Assembly (NCBI GenBank): GCA_016765135.1
Contig: JAESQN010000030.1
Location: 62,001 to 126,000, forward strand
DNA: 64,000 bases
Direction of reading: 5' to 3'
DNA from: Robiginitomaculum sp.
GTDB taxonomy: Bacteria; Pseudomonadota; Alphaproteobacteria; Caulobacterales; Maricaulaceae
This document shows positions 24,183 to 63,354 of this stretch, piece by piece. The notes beneath the pieces are model-generated. The model was not told where the DNA came from, ran no database searches, and worked only from the letters and a program-made list of their open reading frames with translations. The stretch's first letter is position 1; each line of letters opens with the position of its first letter. Position numbers and translations under genes: made by a program.

Positions 24183-24216
24183 TATTTAAAGCAAAGAAGT
24201 TTGCATTTCCCCTACT

Positions 24217-24268
24217 CTAGCCCAACTTTAGCCCAACTTTAGCCCAACTCTAGCCCAACTCTAGCCCA
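24217..24268. repeat. 11-bp tandem repeat between dprA and suhB
   Basis: Four full and one partial unit of (c/t)tagcccaact. The last unit contains the suhB stop codon (complement of cta at 24261), so the array extends into the coding end. Length changes in the array would alter the convergent terminator space or the last residues of SuhB. Confidence 0.85.
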
Positions 24269-43762: not shown

Positions 43763-44485
43763 CTAACGCACCCCTAAATACTTATGGGTTTGCAGGCTCA
43801 AATGCCAGTTTGGATGTTTGAGGCAATAGTTAAAGGCGGCCCTCATAGTATCTTGGGTGTCGTCTTTTTCATCACCTTTTTCGTTGTCTTTTTTGTTGTC
43901 TTTTTTGCTGTCTTTTTTGTTGTCTAGCGGCTGTAATGAAAATACCTGAAAGTCCAGATGGGCAAAATCTTCGGGCTTGTTCTCTATTTGCGGATAGACC
44001 AGTTTTATCTCGTCTCCACTGACCTGCACCAATTTTGCGTCTGCTTTCGGGCTAACACAAAGCCAGTCAATGCCCGACGGTGCCTTGAGCGTGCCATTGG
44101 TTTCCACGGCGACTTTAAATCCGGCGGCATGTAGAGCCGTGATTAAGGGCGCGTCCAATTGCAATAAAGGTTCACCGCCCGTGCAAATCACCCATTTTTC
44201 ACCATGCTTTTCGCCATCTCTATCATCATGTTTGCCATCATGATTCATGGGCCAATAGGACAAGACTTCATCCGCCAAAAGCGCCGCCGTTTTAAATTGC
44301 CCCCCGCCCAAACCGTCCGTACCAACAAACTGCGTATCGCAAAATTTGCACACGGCATTGGCCCGGTCTTTCTCCCGGCCTGACCATAGGTTACAGCCGC
44401 TAAAGCGGATAAATACCGAGACCCGCCCCGTATGTGCTCCCTCGCCCTGTACCGACAGGAATATTTCTTTGACGGAATATGTCAT
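43763..44485 (-). CDS. queE: 7-carboxy-7-deazaguanine synthase (CX14CX2C type)
   Basis: Radical SAM enzyme of queuosine/7-deazaguanine synthesis, about 240 residues. It begins [20 protein letters not shown]. The cluster cysteines are spaced CX14CX2C (CNLW...AVCKFC), the atypical class known from Burkholderia QueE, not the standard CX3CX2[12 protein letters not shown] follows. Two hydrophilic insertions, one with Asp/His/Lys/Glu (~95-110) and one made of DNKK/DSKK repeats (~190-215), set it apart. It overlaps queC by four bases (ATGA). Confidence 0.93.
43883..43925. repeat. 12-bp tandem repeat inside queE
   Basis: About 3.5 copies of g(t/c)tgtctttttt, encoding a Lys/Asp-rich four-residue repeat (DNKK/DSKK) on the minus strand. 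The unit is a multiple of three, so slippage would change protein length without frameshift. Confidence 0.85.
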
Positions 44486-54741: not shown

Positions 54742-55638
54742 CTAAAGCTGCTTCTCTATGGCTGCACGGTATTTTTTTGCGGTTTGTTGCATGCGTTTTA
54801 GGCGCTTGGCATAGCCTGGGTGATCGGCCAAGGGGGCGAAGATGGGCTCATTGGTCAGTTTTAGATAGACATGGCCTTTATCAATGATGGGATCAAGCCA
54901 GCGCAGGGCGGCGTCCGGGTTGCCCCGCATCATATGCAGGGCGGCAGCGCCCAGGGTTTCTTCGGGGAATTTCGTGGTGTCCGGGGATGTTCCCCGCAAA
55001 CTTTTTTCCAAATAATTCAGCAAAATCTCCGCGTCGGCATCATTTTTTTGCTTTAAGACATAGGCATAGACGGCCAGCCAATGGCCTTCTTGAGGGCGGA
55101 AACTGTCTGGTTCGGTGAGGCCATAGGCGGTGACTTCCTTGCGAAAGACTGCATAAGCGAAATCATAATCCGACAAGAGATAAGCCGCATAGGCTGCGTC
55201 ATAATCACCAGGATCGGTTTTCGCCAGTTCCGCGGCTTTTTGCGGGTCACCCGTCAGCGCAAAGGCTGTGGCTTTAACACCTGCAAGTCTTGCCGCCCCT
55301 CTGGCCTGCTCATCCAGCCCGATATCCAGATATAAATTGGTTAGATCAGTTTGTACAAAATATTCATCGGGGTTGGTTTTTGCAGCTTTGAAAAGCAGCG
55401 CGTGGGCACCCACATAATCCGCATTATGACGGCGTAACCGCGCCATCATATTGAGGGCTTGTGCCGCCTCTCCGTTCCATTTCAGATTTGTGCGTGCGGT
55501 GACAAGCGCACCTTCAAAATCGCCTTTCTCATAACGCAAGGCGGAGATATTTCCTAAAACTGCGGGCGATATGGGATCGTAAACCAGGGCCGTTTCATAG
55601 GCTTTCAAGGATTTCTCGCCGCGGCCAAGTGCGCTCAA
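54742..55638 (-). CDS. TPR-rich C-terminal part of the frameshifted CadC-like regulator
   Basis: A 298-residue TPR-type protein (SLKAYETALVYDPISPAVLGNISAL, FVQTDLTNLYLDIGLDEQARGAARL) that continues the sequence of the upstream regulator in another frame. It can start at TTG 55638, overlapping the TGA of the upstream reading frame (TTGA), so it may be translated by coupling. The natural family product carries both parts in one chain of ~740 residues. Either a real frameshift, a sequencing error or a split gene. Confidence 0.65.
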   Translation of the reverse strand: MSALGRGEKSLKAYETALVYDPISPAVLGNISALRYEKGDFEGALVTARTNLKWNGEAAQALNMMARLRRHNADYVGAHALLFKAAKTNPDEYFVQTDLTNLYLDIGLDEQARGAARLAGVKATAFALTGDPQKAAELAKTDPGDYDAAYAAYLLSDYDFAYAVFRKEVTAYGLTEPDSFRPQEGHWLAVYAYVLKQKNDADAEILLNYLEKSLRGTSPDTTKFPEETLGAAALHMMRGNPDAALRWLDPIIDKGHVYLKLTNEPIFAPLADHPGYAKRLKRMQQTAKKYRAAIEKQL

Positions 55639-56927
55639 TGCGTTGGCGCGCTCTGTGTGGGCATAGGTATGCTGATCGCTCTGTCAAACATCAATATGGC
55701 GTCTTCATAGCGCCTTTCAAACGCAGCATAAACTCCGGCAGCGGTTAAAGTTTCAGGTCTGCCGGGTGCCAGTGCCAGCCCGCGGTCAACATAGGGCCGC
55801 ATATTATTCGCAGCCTCGTCCAGCCCCATACTTGCATAAAAGTTCATAAGTTGATAAGTTTGAACAAGTCCGGAATAAGCGGGCGCATAATCTGGTTCCA
55901 GTTCAATGACCTGTTTGTAGAGCGCGATGGCGCGGCGTAATTCCTCCGGCTTTTTTTCCCGCATCAAAGTGTGTGCGCGCAGATAAAGTTCATAAGCCTC
56001 TACGGAACCAGGTCGGACAGGGGTATTTGTGCCGGGTAAATCTAATTCCAAATGCAGTTGCGCCACAATTTTTGCGGCAATATCGTCCTGAATATCCAGC
56101 AGGTTTTCGGCTGAGAACATCCGGTCATAGGTTTGGCTCCACACATGCTTGTCCGTCTTTGTATCAATCAACTGGGCGGTGACCCGCAAGGCCGTCCCGG
56201 AGTGTCGGATACTGCCCTCAAGCACATGGGCGACCTGCAGGGCTTCGCCAATTTCGCTCATCGTGACCGGTTTATCGCGAAACGAAAAGGCGGACGTGCG
56301 CGATGTGACGCTGAGGCCGCCGACGCGGGTCAGAACATTGAGAAGCTCTTCGGCAATGCCGTCGCCGAGATATTGCTGGTCACCAGCGGCACTCATATCC
56401 GTAAAGGGCAAGACGGCAATGCTGGCGGTTTGTATATTGCTACCAATAGTCCGCGGATTGTCCGCCGAGATATTGCCTTTACCGCCGCTTATGTTCAGCC
56501 CGACAAAAGTTAAGGCGATAACCGCCAATGCGGCTATGCCCCAGCCAAACCATTTTCGAGGAACTTTAGCATTGTCGATCGTTTCTCCCGCTAATGGTGC
56601 GGATGCGACGTCATCCCCCGTGATGGTAACACCCCCGATGAACCGCAAACCAGTGCCAGGAAATGTCTTAATCAGTCTTTGGGTTTTGCCGTTATCGCCA
56701 ATGGCTTTTCGGGCCGCGCTGAGCGTGTTGTCAATGGAGCCGTCCGAGACAATCCGCCCAGCCCAGACATGTTTGATGATCTCGTCTTTCGTGACCACCC
56801 GGTCATGATGAACCAGTAGAATTTCCAGCAGCAAATAAATCTTGGATTCGAGTTTTAAGGCTTTGCCCCCGCGGCTTAATTCGGCGCGTCCGGCGTCCAA
56901 TTCATATTTATCAAATTGATAGCGCAT
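55635..56927 (-). CDS. CadC/ToxR-like membrane regulator, N-terminal part (frameshifted)
   Basis: A winged-helix DNA-binding domain of the OmpR/PhoB (Trans_reg_C) class at residues ~1-100 (MRYQFDKYELDAG... VTKDEIIKHVWAGRIVSDGSIDNTLSAARKAIGD), one transmembrane helix at ~130-150 (WGIAALAVIALTFVGL), then a TolB/FlgO-like domain (SIAVLPFTDMSAAGDQQYLGDGIAEELL) and the first TPRs. The frame runs into IPMPTQSAPTH and a stop; the next frame resumes YAHTERANALSALGRG. The loss of sequence at ~55670 breaks one ~740-residue protein. It faces the adhesin gene across a region with five 10-bp phased repeats, probably its operator. Confidence 0.75.
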   Translation of the reverse strand: MRYQFDKYELDAGRAELSRGGKALKLESKIYLLLEILLVHHDRVVTKDEIIKHVWAGRIVSDGSIDNTLSAARKAIGDNGKTQRLIKTFPGTGLRFIGGVTITGDDVASAPLAGETIDNAKVPRKWFGWGIAALAVIALTFVGLNISGGKGNISADNPRTIGSNIQTASIAVLPFTDMSAAGDQQYLGDGIAEELLNVLTRVGGLSVTSRTSAFSFRDKPVTMSEIGEALQVAHVLEGSIRHSGTALRVTAQLIDTKTDKHVWSQTYDRMFSAENLLDIQDDIAAKIVAQLHLELDLPGTNTPVRPGSVEAYELYLRAHTLMREKKPEELRRAIALYKQVIELEPDYAPAYSGLVQTYQLMNFYASMGLDEAANNMRPYVDRGLALAPGRPETLTAAGVYAAFERRYEDAILMFDRAISIPMPTQSAPTH

Positions 56928-57011
56928 AACTAGCAGCATCCCCTTTGTTTTTTTATAAACTATGGGCGGTTTTTGTCCATACCTCATTAAACCACCTTTT
57001 TATAAGGTTTT

Positions 57012-57061
57012 CATGAGATTTCATGAGACATGATGAGGCTATATGAGGAAGCATGAGGTGC
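57012..57061. promoter_or_regulatory. Five-fold 10-bp phased ATGAG array
   Basis: The motif nATGAG begins at 57012, 57022, 57032, 57042 and 57052, i.e. five units exactly one helical turn (10 bp) apart. It lies 85 bp upstream of the CadC-like regulator start and ~325 bp upstream of the adhesin start. OmpR/PhoB-type winged helices, as in the adjacent regulator, bind tandem direct repeats spaced by about one turn. Direct observation; regulator assignment is inferred. Confidence 0.7.
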
Positions 57062-57092
57062 ACATTAGGCGCAGGCCTGCCAGTTTTATAGG

Positions 57093-57130
57093 GGTGAAAC
57101 CATTCACTTACATTAACGGAGGCAATTATG
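57093..57130 (+). repeat. Leader duplication copy 1
   Basis: A 38-bp segment starting ggtgaaaccattcactta and ending in an ATG. It is 33/38 identical to 57350-57387, the leader of the adhesin. Both copies have a small gtgaa-acca-ttcac hairpin and a GGAGGCAA ribosome site. This copy serves the 48-codon frame at 57128. Confidence 0.85.
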
Positions 57131-57274
57131 AAATTTAGTAAAACAAAATCGGCAATATTTAGCAAACCAACAGGCACGGCAACACGGGCGAGAGGTACAC
57201 CCTTATCCGGTTTGGCGCACAGCAATACGACTTGGAAACAGTCGTATAAATGTAAATTTTGCCTGGCGCCATAA
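57128..57274 (+). CDS. Short ORF after duplicated leader (relic or leader peptide)
   Basis: A 48-residue frame (MKFSKTKSAIFSKPTGTATR...) with an excellent GGAGG ribosome site, ending in CKFCLAP. The first residues are weakly like the adhesin N-terminus (NTFSKAKLF), and nucleotide similarity continues through atttagcaaa. It is either the relic of a duplicated adhesin N-terminus or a short leader peptide. No known family. Confidence 0.4.
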   Translation: MKFSKTKSAIFSKPTGTATRARGTPLSGLAHSNTTWKQSYKCKFCLAP

Positions 57275-57349
57275 AAAGCCACTTTCTTCAAATCAAAACA
57301 TTCAAAATCATTATCGCGTTTCTCGGAGCGCTTTTCAAAATATTTCACG

Positions 57350-57387
57350 GGTGAAACCATTCACTTAAATCAATGGAGGCAACCATG
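57350..57387 (+). repeat. Leader duplication copy 2 (adhesin leader)
   Basis: The 38-bp segment that ends in the adhesin ATG, with the gtgaa-acca-ttcac hairpin and GGAGG. 33/38 identical to 57093-57130. The intervening 220 bp show no further long similarity by eye. Confidence 0.85.
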
Positions 57388-60300
57388 CACAACGATACAT
57401 TTAAAACGAACACAGTAAAAGCAAATACATTTAGCAAAGCCAAACTCTTTGGCTCCATCTCACTCGCGGCTCTCTTAAGCATCGGTACATATACGGTCGT
57501 GTACGCGGCACCGAACACCGCTGCCAGCTGTAATTCCACCGCCCCGACCGGAACCAATGCCACCCAGTGCGGTATTGGCGCAGATGCGTCCGACACCCAA
57601 TCGACCGCCACAGGCAATGGTGCACAAGCGACTGGCCACAACTCGACCGCAACGGGGCAAAGGGCACTAGCGACCGGCGTCAACTCGACCGCCACGGGGC
57701 AAAGTGCACAAGCGACTGGCATCAACTCGACCGCAACAGGTCGGAGCGCAAATGCGAGCGACCTCCAATCGACCGCAACGGGTGCGTTCGCACAAGCGAC
57801 TGGCACCGCCTCGACCGCAACGGGCGTAGGCTCACAAGCGACCGGCGTCAACTCGACCGCCACAGGTGCGCTCGCACGAGCAATAGCCGCCTCGACCGCC
57901 ACAGGCAATGGTGCACAAGCGACTGGCGTCAACTCCACCGCCACGGGGCAAAGTGCACAAGCGACCGGCCTCAACTCGGCCGCAACGGGCGTAGGCGCAC
58001 AAGCGACCGGCATCCAATCGACCGCCACAGGTGCGCTCGCACAAGCGACCAGCGTCAACTCCACCGCAACAGGTCGGAGCGCAAATGCGAGCGGCGTCCA
58101 ATCGACCGCCACGGGGCAAAGGGCACAAGCGACCGGCGTCGACTCGACCGCCACGGGGCAAAGTGCACTAGCGAGCAGCGACAGCTCGACCGCCGCGGGC
58201 GTGGGCTCACGAGCGATCGGTTTCCAATCGACCGCCACGGGCGCGGGCTCACAAGCGACCGGCGACAACTCGACCGCCGCAGGCGCGGGCTCACGAGCGA
58301 CTGGCATCTCCTCGACCGCAACGGGTGCGTTCGCACAAGCGACCGGCCTCAACTCGGCCGCAACAGGTCAGAGCGCAAATGCGACCGGCGACAACTCGAC
58401 CGCCACAGGTGCAAGCGCACAAGCGACTGGCACCACCTCGACCGCAACGGGCGTACGCTCACAAGCGACCGGCGTCGACTCGACCGCAACAGGTCAGAGC
58501 GCAAATGCGATCGGCGTCCAATCGACCGCAACGGGCGCAGACGCACGAGCGACCAACCTCAACTCGACCGCCGCAGGCGCGGGCTCACGAGCGACCGGCA
58601 TCTCCTCGACCGCAACGGGTGCGTTCGCACAAGCGACCGGCGTCGACTCGACCGCAACGGGCGTAGGCGCACGAGCGAGCGCCAACAACTCGACCGCCAC
58701 GGGTGCGGGCGCACAAGCGACTGGCGTCTCCTCGACCGCCACGGGTGCGTTCGCACAAGCAATAGGCATATCTTCGACCGCCACGGGCGCGGGCTCACGA
58801 GCGACTGGCATCTCCTCGACCGCAACGGGTGCGTTCGCACAAGCGACCGGCGACAACTCGACCGCCACAGGTCGGAGCGCAAATGCGACTTCTGCCCGCT
58901 CCATTGCCATTGGCGGGGACGGAGCTGACGCAGACACGCTTGGCGCACTAGCCCGCGGCGAAGACAGTGTTGCGCTCGGCAATGACGCCGATGCAGGCGG
59001 GGCGGCAGGTGCAGCCGGAACAACGGCCATTGGTGCAAATTCCAGTGCTGGTTTTGCTAATTCAACGGCGCTCGGTTTTGGCGCTGCGACGAGTGCGGCC
59101 AACCAGATTGCTTTGGGCACAGCGACAAATACATTAACAGTCGCCGGACTTCCGTCCATGGCCAGTTTGGCGGCGCAAGGGGCAGTCACTGGTCTCGTCA
59201 CCACAGACGCAAACGGTAATCTCGCCTCTGACGGCGGCGCGCTGCAAACACAAGTTACAGGCTTGCAGGGCTTGATTTCTACTGGCACGGGAACAAATAC
59301 GACTGAGGTCGGCGCAGGCGCACTAGCGAGCGGCGTCCAATCGACCGCAACGGGGCAAAGGGCACAAGCGACTGGCGCCTCCTCGACCGCCACGGGTGCG
59401 TTAGCACGAGCGACCAGCAACAACTCGACCGCAACGGGCGTGTTCGCAAATGCGACCGGCGTCCAATCGACCGCAACGGGTGCGTCCGCACAAGCGACCG
59501 CGGCCCGCTCCATTGCCATTGGCGGAGACGGGGCTGACGCAGGCAGGCTTGGCGCGCAAGCACGCGGCGAAGACAGTGTTGCGCTCGGCAATGACGCCGA
59601 TGCAGGCGGGGCCACCAATCAGGCCAACACAACTGCTATTGGCGCATCTGCCGCCGCAACCGGTGCAAATTCCAGCGCATTTGGTATGGGCGCACAGGCA
59701 ACACATGTTAATTCCACTGTCATTGGGGTTGGAGCTGTTAGCAGTTTTGATAACCAGATTGTTTTGGGGTTGGGAAACCAAACCCTAACTGTTGCCGGAC
59801 TGCCTTCTGCGGCTTCCTTGGCAGCCCAAGGTGCGGTGACCGGTCTGGTAACCACCGATGCCAACGGCAATCTAGCCTCTGACGGCGGGACACTGCAAAC
59901 AAGCGTCAACACCAACACTACAAACATCGCTACCAACGCAACAGGTATCACCACGAACGCCGGAGGTATCACAGCCAACTCAGCAGGCGTCACAACAAAT
60001 GCTACGGGTATCACAGCCAACTCAGCTGGGGTCACCACCAATGCTGGGGGCATTACAACGAACGCAGCTGGTATCACAACTAACGCAGCGGGAGTCACCA
60101 CGAACGCGGCTGGCGTCACCACGAACGCGGCGGGACTTACAACAAATGCGGCGGACATCACCACGAACGCCGGAGGTATTACAACGAACGCAGCTGGTGT
60201 CACAGCCAATGCAGCTGGTATCACAACAAATACGGCAGGCGTCACAACAAATGCTACGGGTATCACAGCCAACTCAGCAGGTATCACAACAAATGCAGCT

Positions 60301-61875
60301 GGGGTCACCACGAACGCCGGAGGCATCACAACTAACGCAGCTGGCGTCACCACAAACAGTGCGGGTATCACAACTAACGCCGGAGGTATCGCAACCAACG
60401 CCACCGGTATCGGCGCTAATACGACCAACATCAGTACAAACAGTACGGGTGTAGCTTCAAATGCTGCTGGTATCACAACCATCACCACCAATATTGCTAA
60501 CGCAACCACCAATGTAACCGCGCTACAGCAGCTGATTTCAACGGGTGCCGCTACCAATACGCTTGAGGTCGGGGCTACGGCTCAAGCGACACAACCCGGT
60601 GCCATTGCCATTGGCGATAATAGCCAGGCGACCAACACCCAAGCGGTGGCAATCGGTCAAGGTGCGGTTGCTTCAGGCTCCACAGCCGTCGGCGGCGGCG
60701 CTATGGCGACCGGGGCAAGTTCGGCGGCCTTCGGCATGAATGCTCTGGCCATGGGCGCACGCTCGTCAGCTATTGGCGAGAACACCACGGCCAGCGACGA
60801 CGATACAACGGCATTGGGTGAAGGTAGCTCGGCTACTGCCGCTGGTTCCAGCGCATTTGGGCAAGGTGCATCCGCCGGGTTTGCCAATTCTATGGCCATC
60901 GGATTTGGGGCGACGACAGCATTTGCCAACCAGATTGCTCTGGGGACGGCGACCAATACCGTGACAATTGCCGGTGTCACGTCAGCCGCCTCGACGGCGG
61001 CGCAAACGGGAACGGTGCAAATTCTGACAACCGATGCCAATGGTAATATCGCTGCCATAGCCGGTGGCGGTACCGACCCACAAACGGCAGTCAATACCAC
61101 CAATATCGCCACCAACACGGCGGGCCTTGCCACAAATTCTACAAGCATCGGTACTAACACTACCAATATCGCAACAAACGCAGCGGGCATAGCGACGAAC
61201 GTGACCAACATCGCCACAAATACGGCGGGTGTGGCCACCAATGCGACCGGTATCGCGGCCAATACAACGGCAATCACAGGTGTGACGACCAATATCGCGA
61301 CCAATACTGCCGGTGTTGTAACAAATGCAACCAATATCGCCACCAATACGGCAAGTGTGGCGACCAATGCTACGGATATTGCCAGCAATACGGCAGTTGG
61401 GACAACCAATACCACAAACATTGCCAGCAACACAGTGGTTGGGACAACCAACGCCACCAACATATCGACCAACACAGCCGCGATCGCTGCCTTTAGTACA
61501 GTTGGTCTGGCGTCCAGTATCAGCAGCAATACAAGCGCGATCTTGCTCAACACAGCTGGCATCAACACCAACACGGCGGGCATTGCCACCAATCTAGGCT
61601 TCATTCTTGGCAATACACAAGCGATCAACGAGCTTAGAGAAGGCACGGCGGCTCTGGCGTCTATTCCGGATCTGTACTTGCAGGCCAATGAAAGATGGAC
61701 TGTGGCTGGCGGTGTGTCCGGATATGATGACGGGTACGGCGGCGTAGAACACGGCTTTGGTGGCGGTGCACAATTCCGTCTCGGTGATAAATACAGCCAC
61801 GCCTCATTCGGTGTAGCAGCAGCCATCTCAGGCAGCACTTACACAGCCCGTGTACAATTTCGTATCGGGGGCTAG
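57385..61875 (+). CDS. YadA-like trimeric autotransporter adhesin
   Basis: A 1,496-residue surface adhesin. A long basic N-terminal segment precedes the hydrophobic signal core (SISLAALLSIGTYTVVYA). The head has about 30 units of 14 residues with the pattern xxAxATGxxSTATG. Two related neck blocks follow (SARSIAIGGDGADADTLGAL at ~510 and AARSIAIGGDGADAGRLGAQ at ~710, each continuing with EDSVALGNDADAGG), then a short second head of 3-4 units. Stalk repeats (TTNAAGI, 7 residues) occupy ~840-1030, then a third head-like and second stalk region to ~1410. The C-terminal 80 residues form the YadA anchor (AINELREGTAALASIPDL... ARVQFRIGG). The ATG at 57385 is set by GGAGG; the ATG at 57373 lies over that site. 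Confidence 0.95.
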   Translation: MHNDTFKTNTVKANTFSKAKLFGSISLAALLSIGTYTVVYAAPNTAASCNSTAPTGTNATQCGIGADASDTQSTATGNGAQATGHNSTATGQRALATGVNSTATGQSAQATGINSTATGRSANASDLQSTATGAFAQATGTASTATGVGSQATGVNSTATGALARAIAASTATGNGAQATGVNSTATGQSAQATGLNSAATGVGAQATGIQSTATGALAQATSVNSTATGRSANASGVQSTATGQRAQATGVDSTATGQSALASSDSSTAAGVGSRAIGFQSTATGAGSQATGDNSTAAGAGSRATGISSTATGAFAQATGLNSAATGQSANATGDNSTATGASAQATGTTSTATGVRSQATGVDSTATGQSANAIGVQSTATGADARATNLNSTAAGAGSRATGISSTATGAFAQATGVDSTATGVGARASANNSTATGAGAQATGVSSTATGAFAQAIGISSTATGAGSRATGISSTATGAFAQATGDNSTATGRSANATSARSIAIGGDGADADTLGALARGEDSVALGNDADAGGAAGAAGTTAIGANSSAGFANSTALGFGAATSAANQIALGTATNTLTVAGLPSMASLAAQGAVTGLVTTDANGNLASDGGALQTQVTGLQGLISTGTGTNTTEVGAGALASGVQSTATGQRAQATGASSTATGALARATSNNSTATGVFANATGVQSTATGASAQATAARSIAIGGDGADAGRLGAQARGEDSVALGNDADAGGATNQANTTAIGASAAATGANSSAFGMGAQATHVNSTVIGVGAVSSFDNQIVLGLGNQTLTVAGLPSAASLAAQGAVTGLVTTDANGNLASDGGTLQTSVNTNTTNIATNATGITTNAGGITANSAGVTTNATGITANSAGVTTNAGGITTNAAGITTNAAGVTTNAAGVTTNAAGLTTNAADITTNAGGITTNAAGVTANAAGITTNTAGVTTNATGITANSAGITTNAAGVTTNAGGITTNAAGVTTNSAGITTNAGGIATNATGIGANTTNISTNSTGVASNAAGITTITTNIANATTNVTALQQLISTGAATNTLEVGATAQATQPGAIAIGDNSQATNTQAVAIGQGAVASGSTAVGGGAMATGASSAAFGMNALAMGARSSAIGENTTASDDDTTALGEGSSATAAGSSAFGQGASAGFANSMAIGFGATTAFANQIALGTATNTVTIAGVTSAASTAAQTGTVQILTTDANGNIAAIAGGGTDPQTAVNTTNIATNTAGLATNSTSIGTNTTNIATNAAGIATNVTNIATNTAGVATNATGIAANTTAITGVTTNIATNTAGVVTNATNIATNTASVATNATDIASNTAVGTTNTTNIASNTVVGTTNATNISTNTAAIAAFSTVGLASSISSNTSAILLNTAGINTNTAGIATNLGFILGNTQAINELREGTAALASIPDLYLQANERWTVAGGVSGYDDGYGGVEHGFGGGAQFRLGDKYSHASFGVAAAISGSTYTARVQFRIGG
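57590..58890 (+). repeat. 42-bp tandem repeats of the adhesin head
   Basis: About 30 units of 42 bp, each encoding 14 residues. The variable parts fall into a limited set of cassettes (NGAQ, QSAx, QRAx, RSAN, AFAQ, VGxx, AGSx, ALAx) in shuffled order; unit 7 is 13 residues long. The high identity between distant units suggests recombination or gene conversion. Confidence 0.9.
59907..60480 (+). repeat. 21-bp tandem repeats of the adhesin stalk
   Basis: Units of 21 bp encode TTNAxGI/V heptads (about 25 copies). Typical trimeric coiled-coil stalk repeats. Confidence 0.9.
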
Positions 61876-63295: not shown

Positions 63296-63354
63296 TCACC
63301 ATTTTCACTAAACATCACTAAAGTTCACGCATGTTCACTAAACCTCACGCGAAT
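63296..63354. promoter_or_regulatory. Six TCAC half-sites in ~10-bp phase upstream of traG
   Basis: TCAC begins at 63296, 63305, 63315, 63325, 63335 and 63345 (steps 9, 10, 10, 10, 10). Several units continue TCACTAAA. It lies between the divergent antitoxin and traG genes. Regular same-face repeats of this kind fit a multimerising regulator or partition/transfer protein, but no candidate is visible. Confidence 0.65.

Follow-up and report, generated by a model that had tools for sequence, protein, structure and literature searches.

The window (the whole stretch of DNA analysed here, 64,000 nt in length) carries an array of five ATGAG units at 57013–57057 on the plus strand, extending as ATGAGR to 57058. 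The array is situated in an AT-richer intergenic stretch between the gene for a membrane-bound regulator with a winged helix-turn-helix (wHTH) domain, on the minus strand, and a YadA-like gene on the plus strand. ATGAG begins at 57013, 57023, 57033, 57043, and 57053 with zero slip, confirming the preliminary description, which had placed nATGAG at 57012, 57022, 57032, 57042, and 57052 in exact 10-bp phase. Its statement that this is the sole copy also stands: no second ATGAG array is found within the 64,000-nt window. The core is perfect in all five units, whereas the spacers between them (ATTTC, ACATG, GCTAT, and GAAGC) show 77% mismatch (0.77), which is the level of random DNA. Twenty Markov shuffles of the window yielded zero runs of at least four identical 5-mers at periods of 7–39, and five-copy 5-mer runs are expected 6e-8 times per window for one period and ~2e-6 times when 33 periods and any 5-mer are allowed. 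A coding repeat was considered and rejected because the 10-bp period is not divisible by three and no gene is expected at the array.

The regulator is read from two minus-strand frames. The first (55635–56927) comprises the wHTH domain (residues ~21–96), a hydrophobic helix, a weak FlgO-like match, and the first tetratricopeptide repeats (TPRs); the remaining TPR part continues in another frame (54742–55638). The first open reading frame (ORF) runs to 56987, but alignment with relatives favours a start at 56927 (MRYQF). The wHTH matches the Pfam profile Trans_reg_C (PF00486) along its full length (positions 1–77) with 49.6 bits against a cut-off of 26.2, in agreement with the OmpR/PhoB-type winged helix previously proposed for the adjacent gene, and its best sequence matches in the PDB are PhoB and CadC. 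No receiver domain is detected in the protein by Pfam. The hydrophobic segment WFGWGIAALAVIALTFVGL, residues 126–144, has a mean hydropathy of 1.99. Judged by its sequence, the regulator is a membrane one-component protein of ToxR/CadC-like layout, with an N-terminal wHTH, a single predicted transmembrane helix, and a C-terminal extracytoplasmic sensor.

The frame is not intact: it breaks after ~420 residues (~55640–55690) and resumes in 54742–55638, while homologues elsewhere read through as a single frame of ~710–780 aa. The interruption leaves two possibilities, an impaired regulator or a faulty assembly at the break, mutation and assembly error being indistinguishable here. No homopolymer or short repeat is present at the break; slippage is therefore unlikely, and phase variation at the frameshift was rejected. 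Searches with the sensor half return best homologues that lack the wHTH and possess instead a membrane N terminus of the type FSELKRRNIFRVAGVYAVVGW; such proteins are found at loci L007–L009 and on a further contig (C26) of the same genome. Since the sensor homologues carry this different N terminus, the window regulator appears to be a mosaic of domains, and the sensor-half loci have no bearing on the array.

On the other side of the array, the YadA-like gene (57385–61875, plus strand) encodes a surface protein of 1,496 aa with YadA head repeats (PF05658, E 2.3e-60). These repeats fit the trimeric autotransporter of the preliminary description; its membrane anchor, however, is not detected, as the C terminus gives no match to the YadA anchor domain even at E 1. 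The C-terminal segment is conserved in the genus (54%–81%). A leader sequence is duplicated ahead of this gene: copy 1 (57092–57130, plus strand; GGGTGAAACCATTCACTTA...GGAGGCAA..ATG) precedes a 48-aa ORF (57128–57274), and copy 2 (57349–57387, plus strand), which is 87% identical to copy 1, precedes the YadA-like gene itself. Both contain the inverted repeat GTGAA-ACCA-TTCAC just ahead of the ribosome-binding site, and the duplicated leader was not found elsewhere in 14 genomes of the genus.

The upstream regions of 52 relatives of the regulator (wHTH ~38%–52% identical, mostly from the same order) contain phased repeats of their own. The motif TG.AGA occurs 85 times in these regions, whereas shuffled versions contain 7.3 on average and at most 14, and the distances between pairs fall at 11 bp (n = 31), 22 bp (n = 17), and 10 bp (n = 5), with almost none elsewhere. 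Phasing is seen solely on the coding strand of the regulator, the repeats reading toward it, and most arrays begin 25–60 bp ahead of the start codon and finish close to a −10-like hexamer; GCTTGGAGACGGTCTGGAGATCACTTGAAGATCGTCTGGAGATTTGAGCTATTAT (L197) is an example. Outside the order, L311 has five positions at 11-bp steps, four of which are TGCAGA. Several relatives with wHTHs among the most similar (L196, L198, L199, and, from the same genus as the window, L258) carry TGAAGA-type motifs at 10- or 12-bp steps. On this sequence evidence, members of this wHTH class repeatedly have a direct-repeat array ahead of the gene that encodes them; no papers on these arrays were found in the open-access literature.

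Given the recurrence of arrays upstream of related wHTH genes, the window array is best read as the operator of the neighbouring regulator: the five ATGAG units would form a multi-site operator for a divergent, membrane-tethered wHTH protein of the OmpR/PhoB–ToxR type, a reading to which we assign a probability of roughly two in three. Although direct and phased, the window array differs from those of the relatives in position (~85 bp upstream of the regulator, rather than ~20–60 bp), in polarity (reading away from the regulator instead of toward it), and in phase (10 bp, not the usual 11 bp). Polarity and phase count against the operator reading, as do the broken regulator frame, the lack of a consensus promoter, an ortholog locus without the array (G086), and a link between TGAG cores and non-R helices that fell short of significance in held-out data (below).

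The core word appears, from these sequences, to change along with the recognition helix, which reads SSR(V/I)K in most relatives and DNTLS in the window regulator. Across 161 regions, phased TG.AGA is present upstream of 33 of 88 relatives with the R helix and 0 of 73 non-R relatives, whereas phased TGAG[AG] is present upstream of 0 of 88 and 6 of 73, respectively. This rule came from a first set and was checked on a second, held-out one (n = 53), the genomes being related rather than independent. The association of TG.AGA with the R helix held (2/12 versus 0/41 non-R, p 0.048), and that of TGAG with non-R helices was not significant (2/41 versus 0/12 R). Residue 68 is best regarded as a marker of the helix class and not as an established cause, since residues 66, 67, 70, and 71 also differ. 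ATGAG/TGAGG-type arrays are found in some relatives with no SSR motif in the helix, at L273 (CTGAGGATTTCATGAGGATTTGCTGAAAT), L385, and L401. At L273 and L289 (same family, helix SNAIK) the units read TTGAGGGATGT CTGAGGATTTC ATGAGGATTTG CTGAAAT, and at L385 (family f3, helix TQCIR) they read ATGAGCGGC ATGAGGAAGGC ATGAGGTTTCG CTGAAAA. The ATGAG core of the window therefore has precedents upstream of non-R relatives.

The same genome holds one further 10-bp ATGAG pair, located on another contig and forming part of a six-unit array with steps of 11, 11, 11, 11, and 10 bp (G000:C8:63938-63996; L185 1457-1515). This second array lies 128 bp upstream of a transglycosylase gene (SLT_2 + PG_binding_1, peptidoglycan-binding) on the same strand and reads toward it, which is the same polarity relative to the downstream gene as in the window. 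A divergent gene for a TPR secreted protein lies on its other side. Over 440 kb of this genome, chains of at least four units with divergent spacers, allowing any 5-mer core, comprise the two ATGAG arrays only; the scanned sequence took in both arrays, and the second contig was chosen for its ATGAG pair, so this was not a blind whole-genome scan. The pairing suggests a small cell-envelope regulon consisting of a surface protein and a lytic murein transglycosylase. None of the 136 other genomes of the family contains the 10-bp ATGAG array. A search upstream of other YadA-like genes in related genomes, proposed in the preliminary description, finds no array beside those of the genus, and the closest wHTH ortholog (G086, 53%–55%) has none either; absence of the phase at orthologous loci, which that description had named as refuting its reading, is thus seen in part.

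The array might instead be bound by another protein, such as one of this genome's six OmpR-type response regulators or a regulator with a different fold, with the ToxR-like gene a mere neighbour. The genome does encode six other Trans_reg_C proteins, and the transglycosylase array, whose locus contains no wHTH gene, could serve some other protein; the interrupted frame of the adjacent regulator and the array-less closest ortholog point the same way. However, no ATGAG array lies within 1.5 kb of any of the six response-regulator wHTH genes (0/6), the arrays of the relatives adjoin this wHTH class and not other YadA-like genes, and the ATGAG/TGAGG core also recurs upstream of relatives of this very wHTH. 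We regard this alternative as rather unlikely.

It is very improbable that the array is a simple tandem repeat (a VNTR or slippage product) devoid of regulatory meaning. Units 1 and 2 are identical across 10 bp, and head-to-tail copies of ATGAG are common in databases: a scan for at least four ATGAG at 10 bp listed, among its matches, ~150 other sites on public contigs. In nearly all of these listed sites the spacers are almost the same, marking them as plain tandem repeats, and the scan consequently served as a control only; among the matches listed, spacer divergence reaches at least 0.6 in three sites only, and none of the three has five units. As its spacers differ at the level of random DNA, the window array is not a fresh tandem repeat, and a perfect five-unit core between such spacers is the opposite of what a neutrally decaying duplication would leave; moreover, the ATGAG core recurs as an array elsewhere in the genome. 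Action through DNA shape (intrinsic curvature), or as a binding site for a nucleoid protein and not for a specific regulator, would suit the exact 10-bp phase and the AT-richer surroundings, but deserves equally little credence, as there are no phased A-tracts at the array, the conserved word is strictly ATGAG, and the 11-bp phase of the second array fits the word of a protein and not curvature.

If the array is the operator of the divergent regulator, one wHTH domain would occupy the major groove at each ATGAG unit and, because successive units are separated by one turn, several protomers would stack head-to-tail on the same face of the DNA and bind cooperatively. In PhoB-type promoters, the polarity of the repeats is linked to the direction of activation. 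The repeats would accordingly direct activation toward the YadA-like gene and, were this rule kept at both arrays, the activated genes would be the YadA-like gene and the transglycosylase gene. Because the array would also overlie the −35 element of the promoter that drives the regulator, feedback on the regulator is to be expected upon binding. The preliminary description had the array set expression of both the regulator and the adhesin; an operator remains the best reading, but its polarity is toward the adhesin and away from the regulator.

Promoter elements that might accommodate this arrangement were picked out by inspection and are speculative. Toward the YadA-like gene, a candidate −10 hexamer TATAGG lies at 57087–57092 (plus strand), and a possible degenerate sixth unit, ATTAGG, lies at 57064–57069 (plus strand), 11 bp past the fifth; the spacing from this ATTAGG to TATAGG resembles that between the third unit and the −10 element in the relatives (~22 bp). 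For the regulator, a candidate −10 hexamer TATAAA lies at 56998–57003 (minus strand), which would place the array over its −35 region. A consensus promoter scan at the array found no sigma-70 site and neither of the candidate −10 hexamers.

Among known systems, HilA-type regulators share with the window protein a wHTH fused to TPR repeats, but HilA itself is a soluble virulence-island regulator. The ToxR box of Vibrio cholerae, TNAAA-N5-TNAAA (PMC8517210), matches the array in having a five-base core and a five-base spacer and thus a 10-bp direct repeat, and ToxR is likewise a membrane-anchored OmpR-type wHTH protein that controls surface proteins. The core, however, is ATGAG rather than TNAAA, the array has five units against two in the consensus box, and the window regulator has a sensor part of FlgO/TPR type, with no ToxS partner seen. 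The PhoP sites of Mycobacterium tuberculosis are described as direct repeats of 7-bp motifs with a 4-bp spacer (PMC4832192). PhoP, like PhoB on the pho box, illustrates tandem head-to-tail recognition by an OmpR/PhoB wHTH at the 11-bp phase of the relatives' arrays, and the window array resembles such sites; both proteins, however, belong to two-component systems and carry a receiver domain, unlike the window protein, which has none and would face five units at a 10-bp phase. For E. coli CadC, two head-to-head TTAxxxxT sites have been reported (PMC5430869). The regulator had been called CadC-like, and this holds for the sequence similarity of the wHTH (CadC being among its PDB matches), the one transmembrane helix, and the C-terminal sensor; it does not extend to the sites, which are inverted in CadC and direct, head-to-tail repeats here, nor to the sensor part, which differs. 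Owing to the head-to-head binding of CadC, ToxR or PhoB provides the better model.

A broader proposal can be put forward tentatively. The arrays may represent a widespread, apparently undescribed operator class in which every wHTH-TPR membrane regulator has 3–5 helically phased direct repeats ahead of it, with a core that follows the recognition helix. In the present lineage, the phase might have shifted from 11 to 10 bp and the array might have come to face a surface-protein gene, with a second array at a murein-hydrolase gene as its partner, such that a one-face file of membrane-tethered regulators would link adhesion to wall remodelling. For membrane wHTH-TPR regulators, a large family that has received little study, this would furnish a concrete and testable operator code, with arrays readable from sequence and 10- versus 11-bp phases comparable between relatives. 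If true, the regulons of many such regulators would become predictable from genomes, and the window regulator would connect a surface adhesin with a cell-wall hydrolase. The kind of switch is already known, and the array is a good, not a revolutionary, example of it.

Other repeats also occur in the window. At 24210–24268, a near-perfect 11-bp repeat (CCCAACTCTAG × 5.4) lies between a DprA-like and an inositol-monophosphatase-like gene (both named by inspection) and is a plain tandem repeat, since its spacers are nearly identical. A 12-bp repeat (CTTTTTTGTTGT × 4) occupies 43864–43925. At 63305–63350, five TCAC cores recur in 10-bp phase (TTCACTAAAC ATCACTAAAG TTCACGCATG TTCACTAAAC CTCACGCG) and are unrelated to the ATGAG array; they are flanked by a Phd/YefM–PIN toxin–antitoxin pair and a type 4 secretion system (T4SS) coupling-protein gene (TraG/VirD4-like), and are possibly an operator of conjugation genes.
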